64,000 nt of DNA, taken from assembly GCA_026414975.1 (NCBI GenBank), contig JAOAHZ010000006.1, positions 1 through 64,000 of the forward strand, written 5' to 3'. Under the pieces are notes generated by a model that was not told the DNA's origin, did not search any database, and saw only the letters and a program-made list of their open reading frames with translations. Of this stretch, positions 54,722-60,620 are shown piece by piece. The position numbers and the translations under genes are program-made. Within the stretch, counting starts at the first letter, position 1; each line of letters starts with the position of its first letter. This stretch comes from Bacteroidia bacterium. GTDB taxonomy: Bacteria > Bacteroidota > Bacteroidia > SpSt-205.

Positions 54722-54864
54722 CAAATCCCTCTCTGTCCTTATAGACAGACCATAGCAGGACCTTAGAAGGAGGCGAAGTGGCTATAGTCTCCCTGAGACT
54801 TCATAAGCGCTATTCCATGGGGGTGCTCAATGTCCTGTGGGGACTTGTGCTCGGCGGGAGATAG

Positions 54865-55203
54865 CTATCGGTTTAGCATGCCCCACAGCCCTAATCCTAT
54901 CCAAGTGAGGATAAGTAAGGTTCCGCCAGCAGGAGCGGCAGCCGTAGCCCACCTTATGCCCCCTAAATAGCGTAGATATATCGTTCCTGTAAAAAGGCTC
55001 ACCCCGATTACGAACCCCATAGCAATTATTAGAGGAAATAGTCCGTACCTTTCCCGGCTTAGCCAGAGTAGGACGGGAGCATGGAAGAGAGCTATGTAGG
55101 CTGCCTGAGCCAGAGCGGATACAGGGCGAGCATGGGCATAAAGCGTCGCTCCGATGAGCCCTGAAGCCCCCATAACTCCAGCCACTATTACGAGCCATCG
55201 CAT
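54865..55203 (-). CDS. DUF423-family small membrane protein
   Basis: The 112-residue protein has four hydrophobic segments and the DUF423 pattern: an N-terminal GASGLIGATLYAHA-like start, FHAPVLLW, IAMGFVIGVSLFTGTIYLRYLGG and PAGGTLLILTWIGLGLWG. Function is unknown. A near-consensus box TACCTTCG (55208-55215) ends 4 nt before the ATG. Confidence 0.86.
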   Translation of the reverse strand: MRWLVIVAGVMGASGLIGATLYAHARPVSALAQAAYIALFHAPVLLWLSRERYGLFPLIIAMGFVIGVSLFTGTIYLRYLGGIRWATAAAPAGGTLLILTWIGLGLWGMLNR

Positions 55204-55207
55204 ACCC

Positions 55208-55215
55208 CGAAGGTA
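55208..55215 (-). promoter_or_regulatory. Near-consensus -7 element TACCTTCG of the DUF423 gene
   Basis: One mismatch to TAnnTTTG; it ends 4 nt before ATG 55203. Confidence 0.42.
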
Positions 55216-55270
55216 TGGCCTTGACGGGAACTTTTCCCAGCTTATTTGGATTTATTCCAGACAAAACTCT

Positions 55271-55278
55271 TACCTTAG
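55271..55278 (+). promoter_or_regulatory. Near-consensus -7 element TACCTTAG of the HmuY-like operon
   Basis: One mismatch to TAnnTTTG; it ends 8 nt before ATG 55287. I see no Fur- or DtxR-type operator beside it. Confidence 0.3.
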
Positions 55279-55286
55279 CAGCCGCC

Positions 55287-56543
55287 ATGAAAGGGACTAC
55301 AGTTACCTTAGCAGTCCTGTCTGCAGGGCTCATGGGCGTGGCATCCGCCCAATCATTTCGGCGAGATACCGATACTATCGTAATGGGTCAAGGTTATCAG
55401 CGACAAGTGTATTACCAGCTCTCCAGTGGTCAGCAAGACACGGCTGGGCGGTGTAGTTGGCACTTAGCTTTTGAGGTGCCTATACGCGGAGCTGCTATTC
55501 GAGTCAATCATCCTTGTGGAGTAGTGGTATATAAAACCATTCGGGATACGAGCCAATGGGCTCAGGTTAGCCTAAGCGATACAGTGCATCCTCTGTATGA
55601 TGACCTTTGTCGCTGGGAAGTAGGGGCCTTCAATACCACGGCTGGGCCTAATCCGTTTGATGTAGGGTGGGGGCTCTACAGCCTCACTGACCATATCACT
55701 CGGGGCGACTCCCTCTATATCATTCGGGTCGGAGGTGTGTTCAAGAAGCTCTGGATTCAGCGCTTGCAAGGGACGAACTACTTTATTCGCATCGCTAATC
55801 TTGATGGCTCGCAGGACACAAGTTACGCTGTGTCTAAGACGAGGGCGCCGGGCAAAAACTTTGTCTATCTCAACCTGAGCACCCACCAAGTCTTAGACAT
55901 AGAGCCTACTCCTCAGGGCTGGGACCTGCTCTTCACTCAATACACCAGACTGCTTGCGCCGCCTAATGACCCTAATAATCCTATCCCCTACAATCTGACA
56001 GGTGTGCTAATGAATTTGGGGGTGCGAGCGGTGCGCGTCCGCCTCACCTCTCAAGCCAACCCTGATACCTTGACTCCGAGCGCCTATAGCTTAGACTCAT
56101 GCATCTCTGTCATAGGGGATGACTGGAAGCGCTTTACGGGCTCGGGCTGGGCTTTGGCTGATACACTTTACTTTTTGGTGCGCGATAGAGCGGACAATCT
56201 CTGGCGTATCCGATTCATCGGCTTTGGAGGCAGTGCCACGGGGATGATTGTCTTGGAGAAGGTCCTAATCCAGCGCAATACAGCTTTGATAACCGATCGT
56301 ACGACGGAGGCGATTAGGGTTTATCCCCAGCCAGCTCAAGAGGGTATTTATGTGGTTATGCCTGAGCTTGGCGTAGCTCAGATAGAACTGCTGACCCTGA
56401 CGGGTGACCAGGCCCTGAAAACCGTCTTGACCAGCGGAGAAGCTGTCTATGTGCCTCGTCCCGCAGGGCTGACTAGCGGCATCTATCTCCTGCGCATCAC
56501 AACGCCTGTCGGGAGCTGGACCCGACGAGTCTGTTTTGAGTGA
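55287..56543 (+). CDS. HmuY-like secreted protein with T9SS sorting domain
   Basis: The 418-residue protein has a signal peptide (VTLAVLSAGLMGVASAQS). Two blocks resemble the HmuY haem-binding family: YYQLSSG ... SWHLAFEVPIRG with WGLYSLTDHITRGDSLYIIRV and LWIQRLQGTNYFIRIANLDG, then FVYLNLSTHQVLDIEPTPQGWDLLFTQYTR with a second copy-like end (DTLYFLVRDRADNLWRIRFIGFGG). Residues from about 340 form a T9SS sorting domain (IRVYPQPAQEGIYVVM ... SGIYLLRITT). The frame is open to 55215, but the signal peptide fixes ATG 55287. The TonB receptor gene overlaps or abuts its end. Confidence 0.75.
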   Translation: MKGTTVTLAVLSAGLMGVASAQSFRRDTDTIVMGQGYQRQVYYQLSSGQQDTAGRCSWHLAFEVPIRGAAIRVNHPCGVVVYKTIRDTSQWAQVSLSDTVHPLYDDLCRWEVGAFNTTAGPNPFDVGWGLYSLTDHITRGDSLYIIRVGGVFKKLWIQRLQGTNYFIRIANLDGSQDTSYAVSKTRAPGKNFVYLNLSTHQVLDIEPTPQGWDLLFTQYTRLLAPPNDPNNPIPYNLTGVLMNLGVRAVRVRLTSQANPDTLTPSAYSLDSCISVIGDDWKRFTGSGWALADTLYFLVRDRADNLWRIRFIGFGGSATGMIVLEKVLIQRNTALITDRTTEAIRVYPQPAQEGIYVVMPELGVAQIELLTLTGDQALKTVLTSGEAVYVPRPAGLTSGIYLLRITTPVGSWTRRVCFE

Positions 56544-56545
56544 GC

Positions 56546-58708
56546 ATGAACAGGCTGATGGCTCTCGTCGGAGGACTGTCTCTCATGTGGAGTCAATCCC
56601 TTCGCCTCCTTAGTGAGGAAGGGGAGCCTGTCCCTCGTGCTTTAGTGCGATTAGACCCCTTGCCCACTGGACGGTCGCTGTTTCTTCAGAGTGATAGCTC
56701 GGGGGCAGTAGAGGCTCCCCCAGGACTGTATAAAATATGGATATCAGCTGGGGGATTTCTACCTTTCACTAGCCAAGTGAGTCTGCCTGCTACAACCCCG
56801 ATTGTTTTGGTCCGCCCTACCTACACTCTCAGCGAAAATGTTATCACGGGTAGTTATACACCAATCCAAGAAATACGGAGCTTGTACCCCGTACGGGTCC
56901 TCACAGCGGAACGGCTGCAGGCACAAGGGGCTCTGTACCTTCCTCAAGTTCTGATGACAGAGCTCAATGCCCGAGTAGCGCAAGACCCTAATCTGGGAAC
57001 TTTTGCTAACCTTCAAGGGTTAGGAGGCGAACATGTCAGGATACTCCTGGATGGGGTTCCTGTTATAGGCAGAGTGAGTGGGAGCATAGACTTGGCTCAG
57101 TTACCTCTGTCTGAAGTGGAACGGGTAGAAATCGTAGAAGGTCCGATGAGTGTGCTGTATGGGACCGATGCGATGGGAGGGGTAATCAACCTTATCACGC
57201 GTACGAGTCGTTGTCAATGGGAGGGGCGTGCGCGTTTTCAGTATGAGGGCGTGGGAGTGTACGATGTGGGTTTCTCTTTGGCTGGCGGACCGGTGAAACA
57301 TCGGTTGTCCTTAGCGGGAGGGCGTTACTACTTCGATGGCTGGGATCCTAATCCCAGCCGACCCCGTGCCCAGCTCTGGCGCCCCCGTGAGCAATATAAC
57401 TTCCTTCTGTCCTATCAATTTCGTCCATCCGACCGTCTGCATCTGCGCCTTCAGCTACCGTATAATGATGAGACCTTCTTCAACCTCAAAGAGCCTACTA
57501 TTACCCCTCGCCGCATTTACGCTTTAGATGAATACTACTACACCCGACGACTCCTTCCTATGGCTAATTTGAGCTATCAACTTTCCCCTAAGCTAAGATG
57601 GACTCAGCAGGGAGCCTTTCTGTATTACCGCCGCATTCGAAATGTCGTCTACAAAGATTTGGTGACGCTGCAGGAGACCCTCGTTCCTCTGGAAGGGCAG
57701 CAGGATAGCACGCAAGAGTATCAGGCTTGGGCTCGCGGGGGAGTTTCCTACGCTACAGAGCGACTCTCGTTTCAAGCTGGCCATGAGATTCAGTACACAG
57801 TTATTACGGGGAGCCGGATTCGGAATGGACGAGCTGAGATGGGCGATTATGCGGTATGGGGTACCGCTGAGTGGCAGCTAAGCCCCACTTTGGCTATTAG
57901 TCCGGGTTTCCGCTGGGCCTACAACACTCGCTATCAAACTCCATTTCTTCCTGCGCTTCACCTTCGCTGGAGTCCTACGCCTGAGCTCACGTGGCGAATC
58001 GGTTACAGCCGAGGTTTTCGGGCTCCTTCGCTCCGAGAGCAGTTTTTATACTTAGTCTTTACGAACCATAACATCCAGGGTAACCCTGACCTGCGCCCTG
58101 AACAGAGTCATCACCTTCATACCAATCTTACCTACACTCACGCTAAAACTTCCCTTCTTTGGCGGCTTCGTCTGTCCGCTTTTTACAACGATGTACGGGA
58201 CATTATTCAGTTGGTCATCGTGGATCCCATGACGCTTTTCACGACTTACTACAATCTACAACGGTTCCAGACCTTGGGGCTGCAGCCCCGCGTAGAGTTT
58301 CGCACTCAGCGTCTCTCTCTGTTAGCTGGAGCGACTTTCACGGAATATCGCAGACAACGCTGGGGCTGGGAAGCGGTGACTCAGATTATCTACAACTGGA
58401 AAGGTTTTTCTCTTGGTACCTTCTTCAAATATCAAGGTCGAACCCCTATATTCTTCGGCGAACAGAATGGCGACGTTACTTGGCGCTGGATAGGCGGGTT
58501 TCCCTGGTTAGACCTTTCCCTTAGTAAAGCCTTTTGGCGAGAGCACTGGCACATCACCGTCGGATTGCGGAATGCCTTGGGTATCACGAATGTGCAAGCC
58601 AACTTGGCTGGAGGCGTCCATGTGGCTGGTGGGTTTAGTTCCCCAGTGGGCATGGGCCGATATCCTTTTATTCGGCTTGATTATCAACTTCGGCGAGGAG
58701 AACTATGA
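56546..58708 (+). CDS. TonB-dependent outer-membrane receptor (HmuR-like context)
   Basis: The 720-residue protein has a signal peptide, an N-terminal carboxypeptidase-regulatory-like domain (about 20-95), and a plug domain. Plug motifs are TLSENVITGSYTPIQEI, LQGLGGEHVRILLDGVPVIG and VERVEIVEGPMSVLYGTDAMGGVINLITR. A 22-stranded-type barrel follows, with YSRGFRAPSLREQFL and NPDLRPEQSHH, ending in RLDYQL. It takes up a bound ligand through TonB. Flanking HmuY-like genes suggest haem or a similar metal chelate. GTG 56540 is an alternative start overlapping the previous stop. The ATGA overlap with the next gene supports one operon. Confidence 0.9.
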   Translation: MNRLMALVGGLSLMWSQSLRLLSEEGEPVPRALVRLDPLPTGRSLFLQSDSSGAVEAPPGLYKIWISAGGFLPFTSQVSLPATTPIVLVRPTYTLSENVITGSYTPIQEIRSLYPVRVLTAERLQAQGALYLPQVLMTELNARVAQDPNLGTFANLQGLGGEHVRILLDGVPVIGRVSGSIDLAQLPLSEVERVEIVEGPMSVLYGTDAMGGVINLITRTSRCQWEGRARFQYEGVGVYDVGFSLAGGPVKHRLSLAGGRYYFDGWDPNPSRPRAQLWRPREQYNFLLSYQFRPSDRLHLRLQLPYNDETFFNLKEPTITPRRIYALDEYYYTRRLLPMANLSYQLSPKLRWTQQGAFLYYRRIRNVVYKDLVTLQETLVPLEGQQDSTQEYQAWARGGVSYATERLSFQAGHEIQYTVITGSRIRNGRAEMGDYAVWGTAEWQLSPTLAISPGFRWAYNTRYQTPFLPALHLRWSPTPELTWRIGYSRGFRAPSLREQFLYLVFTNHNIQGNPDLRPEQSHHLHTNLTYTHAKTSLLWRLRLSAFYNDVRDIIQLVIVDPMTLFTTYYNLQRFQTLGLQPRVEFRTQRLSLLAGATFTEYRRQRWGWEAVTQIIYNWKGFSLGTFFKYQGRTPIFFGEQNGDVTWRWIGGFPWLDLSLSKAFWREHWHITVGLRNALGITNVQANLAGGVHVAGGFSSPVGMGRYPFIRLDYQLRRGEL

Positions 58709-59676
58709 GCAGCCGATCGTTTGTAAGACTTTGGCTTATTTCGTTTATAGCCTTAGCGTGTCGTAAGGCTGAGAAACCTTGGAAGCTGCCAGATTATGGG
58801 GGGGGCCGCATCATAGAAGCCAAAACAGGGGTGGAATACGATACGGTGGTATGGGCCAGTTTGGAGCTTGGTCAAGTCCAAGGGATTTTGCGGACGAACT
58901 GGGACCTTAGGCTTAGAGCCGAGGGAGGGGTCTATCAAGTTTGGCTCAACGCGGCGATGTACGCTTTTGCAGCGGAGGTATCTGAGTCTGAATGGTATGC
59001 TCTGACAGAGGCCTCTCGGTCCCTTCCTTGGCGCTGTGACCTTGCTGATACCGCTGCTCTGCTCCCCTTGCGTCGAGGTGAGGTTCGCTACTTCCTCTTA
59101 GATAGAGACAGAGGTGAGGTTTTCTATCGCCAGCCTCAAAGGCGATATAGAAAAGTTGCTGTCCGTTGGCAAGGGCCGAATGTGGAAATCGTAGCGGTCC
59201 CGCTGGCAGGAGGGGATACAGCTCGCTGGCTCGTACCTGTAGGCACTGAGAGCGCTTTCATCCATGTGGAAAAGCCAGGACAGCTTTTGTCCCTTCAGCC
59301 CTCCTGGCGTCCAGAACTCATCGTTACTCGGTATGTGCATCCCTTCTACAACCAGCCTGAAGAGTTTCGTTGGTATCCTGTTTTAGGCGTCCTGTTGGGC
59401 GATGCTGTAGAAGCGGCTGTGGTGCGCACCGCTAATGTACCTTACGAGTCCATGGACTATTCTAAGGTAGAACAGCTCGTTTTTACCTCTAAGCGCGACC
59501 TGATCGGTTATGATTGGAAGCGGTACGATTTTGGTACAGGTACTTATACGATAGATTTTAGCCGCTATTTCGTCCTGCGCATGGGACCTACGACCTACTA
59601 TAAGTTGCGCTTTATAGACTTCTACGACGAGCAAGGACGGAAAGGGACTGTAAAGATAGAGTATGAACCCCTTTAG
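58705..59676 (+). CDS. HmuY-like lipoprotein
   Basis: The 323-residue protein has a lipoprotein signal with lipobox IALAC near residue 19. Two halves show HmuY-like elements: EYDTVVWASLELG with TNWDLRLRAEGG early, and KRDLIGYDWKRYDF, TYTIDFSRYFVLRMG and TYYKLRFIDFYDEQGRKG at the end. The last block is the best match to the HmuY family end. It would be anchored to a membrane and hand ligand to the receptor encoded just upstream. Its ligand residues cannot be fixed by eye. Confidence 0.72.
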   Translation: MSSRSFVRLWLISFIALACRKAEKPWKLPDYGGGRIIEAKTGVEYDTVVWASLELGQVQGILRTNWDLRLRAEGGVYQVWLNAAMYAFAAEVSESEWYALTEASRSLPWRCDLADTAALLPLRRGEVRYFLLDRDRGEVFYRQPQRRYRKVAVRWQGPNVEIVAVPLAGGDTARWLVPVGTESAFIHVEKPGQLLSLQPSWRPELIVTRYVHPFYNQPEEFRWYPVLGVLLGDAVEAAVVRTANVPYESMDYSKVEQLVFTSKRDLIGYDWKRYDFGTGTYTIDFSRYFVLRMGPTTYYKLRFIDFYDEQGRKGTVKIEYEPL

Positions 59677-59792: not shown

Positions 59793-59841
59793 GGGGGTGG
59801 TGGGGCGCCAGCGCCGACGGCGCTGGCGCCCCACCACCCCC
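59793..59841. repeat. Perfect 23-bp GC-rich inverted repeat (hairpin, 3-nt loop)
   Basis: The left arm 59793-59815 and right arm 59819-59841 pair over 23 bp without a mismatch, around the loop GAC. The arm begins GGGGGTGGTGGGG and continues CGCCAGCGCC. No T tract follows on either strand. It lies between the HmuY-like lipoprotein gene and the methyltransferase promoter. The 116 nt before it (59677-59792) hold nothing I recognise. Confidence 0.9.
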
Positions 59842-59859: not shown

Positions 59860-59867
59860 TACTTTTG
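59860..59867 (+). promoter_or_regulatory. -7 element TACTTTTG of the methyltransferase gene
   Basis: Perfect TAnnTTTG ending 6 nt before ATG 59874. The longer open frame would begin with the TTG inside this box. Confidence 0.6.
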
Positions 59868-59873
59868 CCATCC

Positions 59874-60620
59874 ATGGACTCAGCCGAGAAGAAGGCTACG
59901 AACACCGCCTTCACCGAAGCTCAAAACTCTAATATATATCCAGACGGTATCCAGAAAAACTTTTGGCACATAGGCAGAAACAAAACGATACTTCATTACT
60001 TGAATCGGTGGCGAGCTGAGCCTCTATTAGAAATAGGGGCCGGTCGGGGCATTCCGCTTGAGGCTCTGCTTCAGCATGGATGGAAGGCTCAAGGCGTAGA
60101 CTTGACTCTGACTACGCCCATTAGTCCTCAGCTCCCTATTCAGTATGGGGTGGATGTTTTATCCGAGACCTTTTCCCACACATCTCGTTATAGAAGTGTC
60201 GCTCTCTTTGATGTGATAGAGCACCTCCCCGATAGGATAGACTTCTTGACTCGGCTAAGGCATCGCTTTGAGAACCTACGCTACCTGTACGTAACCGTGC
60301 CTTCTCCCCCCGACCTATGGTCTAACTACGATGAAGCGGCAGGGCATTACCTGCGATACGACCCTCGCACTCTTAAGCAGGAGCTGGAAGCCTCTGGATA
60401 TCGGGTGATCTTCATGCGCTACTTCTTTCATGGGCTGTATTGGGTCATAAAGCTCACTTTGTCAGCGCGTCAAAAGCGAGCCGAAAGCTTTACCCCTCCA
60501 AAAGGTCTATGGATTCTCTTCCACCGAGCGATAGGTGAATACTGTTACTACGAAGCTCGGATTCTACCTGGCAGTTGGCGGGGTAGCTCTATCATCGCTG
60601 TTGCCGAGCCGATAAAGTAG
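59874..60620 (+). CDS. Class I SAM-dependent methyltransferase
   Basis: The 248-residue protein has motif I LLEIGAGRGIPLEALL near residue 52, an acidic loop QGVDLTL, a post-motif II SVALFDVIEHLPDR and a motif III-like YLYVTVPSPPD. This is the Methyltransf_11/23 type. The substrate is unknown and no methylated pathway is adjacent. The ATG is set by the -7 box 6 nt upstream. It ends 122 nt before the convergent dus gene; that gap holds a 5-bp hairpin (GAGTC/GACTC) and nothing else I recognise. Confidence 0.85.
   Translation: MDSAEKKATNTAFTEAQNSNIYPDGIQKNFWHIGRNKTILHYLNRWRAEPLLEIGAGRGIPLEALLQHGWKAQGVDLTLTTPISPQLPIQYGVDVLSETFSHTSRYRSVALFDVIEHLPDRIDFLTRLRHRFENLRYLYVTVPSPPDLWSNYDEAAGHYLRYDPRTLKQELEASGYRVIFMRYFFHGLYWVIKLTLSARQKRAESFTPPKGLWILFHRAIGEYCYYEARILPGSWRGSSIIAVAEPIK

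Follow-up and report, generated by a model that had tools for sequence, protein, structure and literature searches.

In the hmuYRSTUV loci of Porphyromonas gingivalis and Bacteroides, as described in PMC12583661 and PMC12106395, an HmuY-fold lipoprotein is encoded beside a TonB-dependent receptor and serves the supply of haem. Here we describe a three-gene operon, A-R-B, which lies in a stretch of 64,000 nucleotides (the window; positions 1 to 64,000 of the forward strand of contig JAOAHZ010000006.1) from the Bacteroidia bacterium assembly GCA_026414975.1. In contrast to the hmu loci, two HmuY-type proteins of two units each (A and B) flank the receptor (R), one of them, A, has a tail for the type IX secretion system (T9SS), hmuSTUV genes do not adjoin, and no conserved His/His, His/Met or Met/Met pair for the haem iron was found in A or B. 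We regard A-R-B as a probable haem-uptake operon of the Hmu/Hfp kind that is under iron control and encodes two paralogous proteins resembling haemophores.

Other described systems resemble this locus in part. HfpR-HfpY of Flavobacterium psychrophilum is likewise a TonB receptor with an HmuY-family protein, is iron-regulated, and its HfpY binds haem; unlike here, the receptor is reported to come first, then a DoxX-type gene and then HfpY, the single HmuY-like protein of that operon (PMC9331221). HmuY of Flavobacterium columnare (C6N29_01035) is like A in outline, combining pfam14064 with Por_Secre_tail and being described as a T9SS-secreted protein, but the account of it in PMC9618737 mentions neither a flanking receptor nor a lipoprotein partner; a strain without it is reported to have grown normally in the media used there. 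In Riemerella anatipestifer, hmuY-hmuR (RAYM_06175/06180) and RAYM_06185 are reported to be Fur-regulated together, with the Fur box ATTTAGAATTATTCTAAAT (PMC5609570). HmuY-Bf-2 of Bacteroides fragilis (BfrB, PDB entry 8b6a) is the best PDB profile match to B, and conserved aromatic positions in unit 2 align with its Tyr89 and Tyr165, but it is a single unit and is described as preferring protoporphyrin IX over haem (PMC12106395). That a genome can hold several HmuY proteins is already described in the same source. Also in print are the HmuY fold, the pairing of HmuY with a receptor, T9SS-tailed HmuY and Fur control. Our search of open-licence papers met no account of a receptor flanked by two paralogous double-unit HmuY proteins of which one is exported and the other anchored, an absence that is weak evidence of novelty. 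As far as the cited papers describe them, their HmuY systems belong to bacteria that live with a host, namely anaerobes of the mouth and gut and pathogens of fish and ducks.

By profile and by modelled fold, A and B are HmuY proteins. B reached 31.7 bits against the Pfam HmuY profile (PF14064, cut-off 27) over profile positions 2-157 of 157, and A scored 25.4 bits, slightly below the cut-off. For family-wide comparison, 31 B-type and 30 A-type sequences were aligned, from a reference set that excludes five fragments, tail-only or doubtful hits; L091 and L012, which are in the reference set, were not put into alignment A1. At an expectation value (E) of 0.01 or lower, PF14064 was matched by 31/31 B-type and 23/30 A-type proteins, the best A-type value being 6.6e-18. 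The C-terminal part of A matched the NCBIfam T9SS type A sorting domain (TIGR04183) at 26.4 bits, over the cut-off of 23; all 30 A-type proteins matched this profile at E<=0.01, and the lipobox Cys19 of B is invariant in the 31 sequences. The N-terminus of A, judged by eye, is a signal sequence. The source genome holds further T9SS-tail matches elsewhere.

AlphaFold models built on the two family alignments had a mean predicted local distance difference test score of 91.2 for B and 89.2 for A. When they were compared with known structures by VIA-align, HmuY crystal structures topped both lists, with Z 10.8-14.7 for B (132-160 residues aligned, root-mean-square deviation 2.8-3.6) and Z 10.4-13.0 for A (127-159 aligned, deviation 2.6-4.3). 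A DUF4466 chain (4ei0) also matched at Z 8.3-8.8, below the HmuY rows. The C-terminal 78 residues of A matched T9SS tail domains and other beta-sandwich domains, with Z 9.7-10.1 against T9SS C-terminal domain structures. Foldseek alone placed B with HmuY chains at E 1.9e-5 to 7.5e-4 (nine at E<=0.001) and A at 2e-3 or worse. Because single-sequence phmmer searches of the PDB gave no match for A and weak matches for B, profiles were used for that comparison, and they matched B to 8b6a (E 3.7e-11), 6eu8 (6e-7) and 3h8t (1.1e-6), and A, more weakly, to 8b6a (1.9e-4). The original prediction had proposed a TonB receptor between two HmuY-like proteins, one with a T9SS sorting domain and the other with a lipobox, and had staked this on a structural match to HmuY; since HmuY structures head both lists, and the profile results agree, that proposal stands.

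Both binders had also been thought to be duplicated internally, and half-against-half comparison of profiles confirms this (E 1.3e-6 with probability 90.5 for A, and E 5.8e-5 with probability 65.5 for B), as do Pfam scans of single halves, in which PF14064 was matched by the first and second halves of 14/30 and 17/30 A-type proteins and of 23/31 and 31/31 B-type proteins. The first halves of the window's own A and B, taken alone, fell short of E 0.01 against PF14064. The first half of A matched the second half of B (E 2.6e-7), and like halves of the two proteins matched each other more strongly (first halves E 1.6e-19, second halves E 3.7e-33). A single HmuY domain with an unrelated insertion was considered as another origin of the long chains, and it is weakened by the same half-against-half comparisons and per-half scans. 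The structural alignments begin at residues 19-35 and end at residues 323-332 but hold only 127-160 pairs, so strands may be exchanged between the two units in the modelled proteins. In a quick, unrooted tree of 61 proteins, all A (30) and all B (31) fell on opposite sides of one branch, with a support of 100 in the Shimodaira-Hasegawa-like approximate likelihood ratio test. Since the tree separates every A from every B, the two look like ancient paralogues whose split is older than the families sampled.

The A-R-B order is conserved in the genus and across many other families. Variants are R-B-A (L075), B and A with no intervening R (L084), and A divergent from R-B (L081, L089); R-B occurs without a nearby A at L087, L090, L092 and L093, and A with R but without a nearby B at L086 and L088. 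Among 14 genomes searched for A, eight gave full-length hits, and the remaining six (five f5 and one f2) gave partial hits inside B. With B as a single-sequence query, matches at E<=0.001 were found in at least 15 of 247 genomes of the phylum, a lower bound given the low sensitivity of such a scan. Side genes accompany some of these loci. At L004, L005, L006 and L007 a Redoxin/AhpC-type gene (170-171 aa; one member assigned by Pfam, the rest by clustering), which is absent from this place in the window, directly follows B. Between the divergent A and R of L089 lies a 268-aa protein (L089:10778-11584) with 26.7 bits against the T9SS-tail profile PF18962, cut-off 27, and L081 has a 272-aa open reading frame (ORF) at the same place. 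A CbiX-type chelatase of 317-352 aa stands between A and R at L073:9563-10522 and L076:2804-3862, and at L074:2702-3655 by clustering; it is a possible counterpart of the Bacteroides HmuS de-chelatase. L073 also holds a PepSY-type protein.

The operon is likely to be behind an iron-controlled switch. The upstream regions of A share a palindrome with the consensus TATTTrGAnTnAnTCyAAATA, and the window's copy, TATTTGGATTTATTCCAGACA, agrees with it at 16 of the 18 specified positions; none of 100 shuffled versions of that upstream region scored as high. It is the sole such site in the window, seen on both strands, with 0 expected. Scores of at least 15/18 were found in 19 of 29 A upstream regions (L067, with 50 bases upstream, was left out). 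In 497,002 bases of 36 loci (six further loci, on the same contigs as L002-L007, having been set aside), 33 of 35 strong sites lie within 200 bases of a start of A, R or B, spread over 23 of the 36; since the consensus comes from the same upstream regions, and since members of the genus are closely related, these numbers overstate independence. By eye, the window's box equals the Riemerella Fur box ATTTAGAATTATTCTAAAT at 14 of 19 positions. That box is reported to have Fur gel-shift support at the hmuR promoter, and RAYM_06185, the neighbour, is listed with HmuY and HmuR as under Fur regulation, while the abstract of the same paper prints another, E. coli-like Fur box (PMC5609570). Fur would then be the probable regulator here.

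With respect to the ligand, four lines, namely operon neighbours in relatives, a histidine of the receptor, a need for haem and tyrosines of the pocket, point to haem or a porphyrin. First, members of a shared set of gene clusters are present at five of the 36 loci compared (L079, L081, L086, L089, L093). At L079 they comprise a Peripla_BP_2 protein, a FecCD permease, a haem ATP-binding cassette (ABC) ATPase and a HemS/ChuX protein, the ATPase reaching 268 bits against the haem transporter profile NF010068 (cut-off 261); the binding protein of L093 scores as IsdE-like and a protein of L089 as HutX-like, both below cut-off. Second, R, which has Plug and TonB-dependent barrel domains by Pfam, carries His510 between boxes of FRAP and NPDL type, and this residue is invariant in 35/35 receptors. 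R is the only one of 15 barrel matches in the source genome to have the FRAP-NPDL box with the histidine. Against TIGR01785, R scored 98.5 bits, far below the curated cut-off of 316.85.

Third, the source genome (2.2 Mb, 96.7% complete) gave no match to ferrochelatase in a search that was positive in 8 of 14 control genomes, and the result was equally negative across the whole of the window's family, whose 12 genomes include several at 96-99% completeness. Meanwhile, COX1 matches, which indicate haem-copper oxidase, are present in all 12 family genomes, with two in the source genome. A two-domain HemS-type protein is encoded far from the triad in the source genome (G000:C11:404860-405801; L139, L140; open frame of 410 aa); HemS was found in 11 of the 12 family genomes and, beyond those, in G262 and G012 only among 40 relatives. 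The source lineage seems, from its gene content, to be a haem auxotroph with oxidases, unless a non-homologous enzyme does the ferrochelatase step. In the 40 relatives, ferrochelatase was absent from 16 and present in 3 genomes with A, and absent from 6 and present in 15 without A (Fisher p 0.0005); counted by genus the figures are 7 and 3 against 5 and 15 (p 0.045), neither test being corrected for kinship. Presence of A was scored here from full-length or near-full-length hits (19 genomes), and tail-only hits and a partial hit in G049 were counted as absence.

Fourth, Tyr89 and Tyr165 of HmuY-Bf-2 are described as taking part in the binding of haem and protoporphyrin IX (PMC12106395). In alignments read by eye, Tyr219 of A (29/30 sequences) corresponds to Tyr89, and the second pocket position of A is Trp, Tyr or Phe in 28/30; in B, Tyr210 (23/31) and Tyr281 (25/31) correspond to Tyr89 and Tyr165. 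His136 in unit 1 of A is conserved in 27/30.

Several points weigh against haem uptake, besides the uncorrected kinship in the ferrochelatase comparison. Receptors of this phylum may often carry a motif with the histidine of R. In the window's genus neither the haem ABC genes nor HemS lie beside the triad, and the source genome lacks a FecCD permease, which 13 of 14 control genomes have. G049, G273, G274 and G280 are without ferrochelatase and without full-length A, and G012, G262 and G282 have both. The pocket tyrosines were not found in unit 1, the B consensus lacks both Met and His throughout the segment that corresponds to residues 96-150 of Tannerella forsythia HmuY, and His136 is the sole conserved histidine of A, for which no partner was identified. 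An iron-coordinating pair of His or Met residues is reported for most, not all, characterised HmuY members; HmuY-Bf-2 is described as binding haem without coordinating the iron, and HmuY-Bf-3 as binding neither haem nor protoporphyrin (PMC12106395). The original prediction had suggested that the ligand may not be haem. The want of a conserved axial iron ligand speaks for that doubt, and the operon neighbours, receptor histidine, Fur-like box, HemS, missing ferrochelatase and pocket tyrosines speak against it; as judged from sequence, the doubt is weakened and still standing.

If A-R-B takes up haem, iron shortage would turn the operon on through the Fur-type box at 55243-55263. With its signal sequence and T9SS tail, A would cross the outer membrane, to be held at the surface or released, and would capture haem, or else some other porphyrin, at a distance from the receptor. 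B, presumably anchored by lipid to the outer membrane beside R, would take haem from A or from the medium, and R would pass it into the periplasm with TonB energy. Direct handover from A to B to R would be the simplest role for a pair of paralogues flanking a single receptor, and such a two-stage relay is plausible. A fuller version of it, which we hold tentatively and with some doubt, is an old and widely kept relay in which the exported double-unit HmuY strips haem and hands it to the lipid-anchored paralogue docking on the receptor, the units of each protein splitting the tasks; unit 2 would keep the porphyrin pocket with its tyrosines, and unit 1 of A carries His136. The relay would then be the haem supply of an oxidase-bearing bacterium unable to make haem, in the window's lineage.

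A and B may also act in parallel, with no relay between them, A as a roaming or source-specific scavenger and B bound to the receptor, either one feeding R alone; we give this close to an even chance. B and R persist without a detectable A in six of the 14 genomes searched, and L086 and L088 have A and R without a nearby B. Because of such genomes the full chain is apparently not always needed, so parallel action would be about as likely as a relay and fit the sequences about as well. HfpY-HfpR, too, is reported to work with its single HmuY-like protein (PMC9331221). On the other side, most of the families sampled have retained both proteins, which form two old sister lineages, and this suggests distinct and linked roles.

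For the operon as a haem-uptake system, the next alternative concerns the ligand, which could be an iron-free or other tetrapyrrole, be it protoporphyrin IX, a precursor of haem or a ring like that of cobalamin. HmuY-Bf-2, the solved structure nearest to B by profile, has the preference for protoporphyrin IX noted above (PMC12106395), the CbiX-type chelatase stands between A and R at three loci, and BtuB is among the best curated profiles for R, far below its cut-off. However, a cell that lacks ferrochelatase could do little with protoporphyrin IX, and the HemS of 11/12 family genomes and the haem-type ABC ATPase and HemS of relatives argue for haem itself; we think this alternative unlikely. 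A siderophore or other non-tetrapyrrole iron chelate, bound by a reused HmuY fold, is very improbable: a Fur-like box by itself indicates iron and not haem, and no axial haem ligands are conserved, but the HmuY ligands named in PMC12106395 are haem or porphyrin, the pocket tyrosine is conserved, relatives' operons hold haem genes, and the source genome has no FecCD permease.

If haem uptake by A-R-B holds true, the operon would represent a conserved haem-uptake module of Bacteroidota in which labour is divided between an exported and an anchored haemophore. The nearest named relatives of the source genome are metagenome-assembled Bacteroidia, and the SKY and KatS3 isolates among the relatives presumably come from hot springs; the module would then extend to environmental lineages. 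Linked to the loss of ferrochelatase, it would also mean that haem is traded between free-living microbes. A and B are small proteins, open to direct production and testing.

The features of the locus are collected in Table 1. The original prediction gave its limits as 55271-59676, essentially right against the 55287-59676 found here.

Table 1. Position of the A-R-B operon and associated features in the window.
Feature	Coordinates	Strand	Description
Operon A-R-B	55287-59676	+	Three genes, each junction a 4-base overlap
Gene A	55287..56543	+	418 aa; two-unit HmuY-type protein; T9SS type A tail; without lipobox
Gene A, HmuY-like unit 1	55353..55808	+	Residues 23-174
Gene A, HmuY-like unit 2	55809..56285	+	Residues 175-333
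Gene A, T9SS type A sorting domain	56319..56531	+	Residues 345-415; TIGR04183
Gene R	56540..58708	+	TonB-dependent receptor, 722 aa, GTG start
Gene B	58705..59676	+	323 aa; two-unit HmuY-type lipoprotein; lipobox Cys19 at 58759-58761
Gene B, HmuY-like unit 1	58777..59217	+	Residues 25-171
Gene B, HmuY-like unit 2	59218..59673	+	Residues 172-323; GYDWKRYDF motif
Fur-box-like palindrome TATTTGGATTTATTCCAGACA	55243..55263	+	Just upstream of A
Perfect 23-bp inverted repeat	59793..59841	.	3-base loop; 117 bases past B; read from the sequence

A second in-frame ATG for gene A lies at 55215. The ORFs of at least 100 aa that adjoin the triad are at 54827-55333 on the minus strand and at 59865-60620 on the plus strand (251 aa). 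HmuS is given as 1469 residues long in PMC12583661; both adjoining ORFs are too small for it, and hmuSTUV genes were not found next to the triad. Scans for sigma-70 promoters and for terminators gave results at chance level. The inverted repeat past B has no run of T behind it and is absent from the terminator-like sites of the terminator scan; it may mark the end of the operon or transcript, or be a repeat element.

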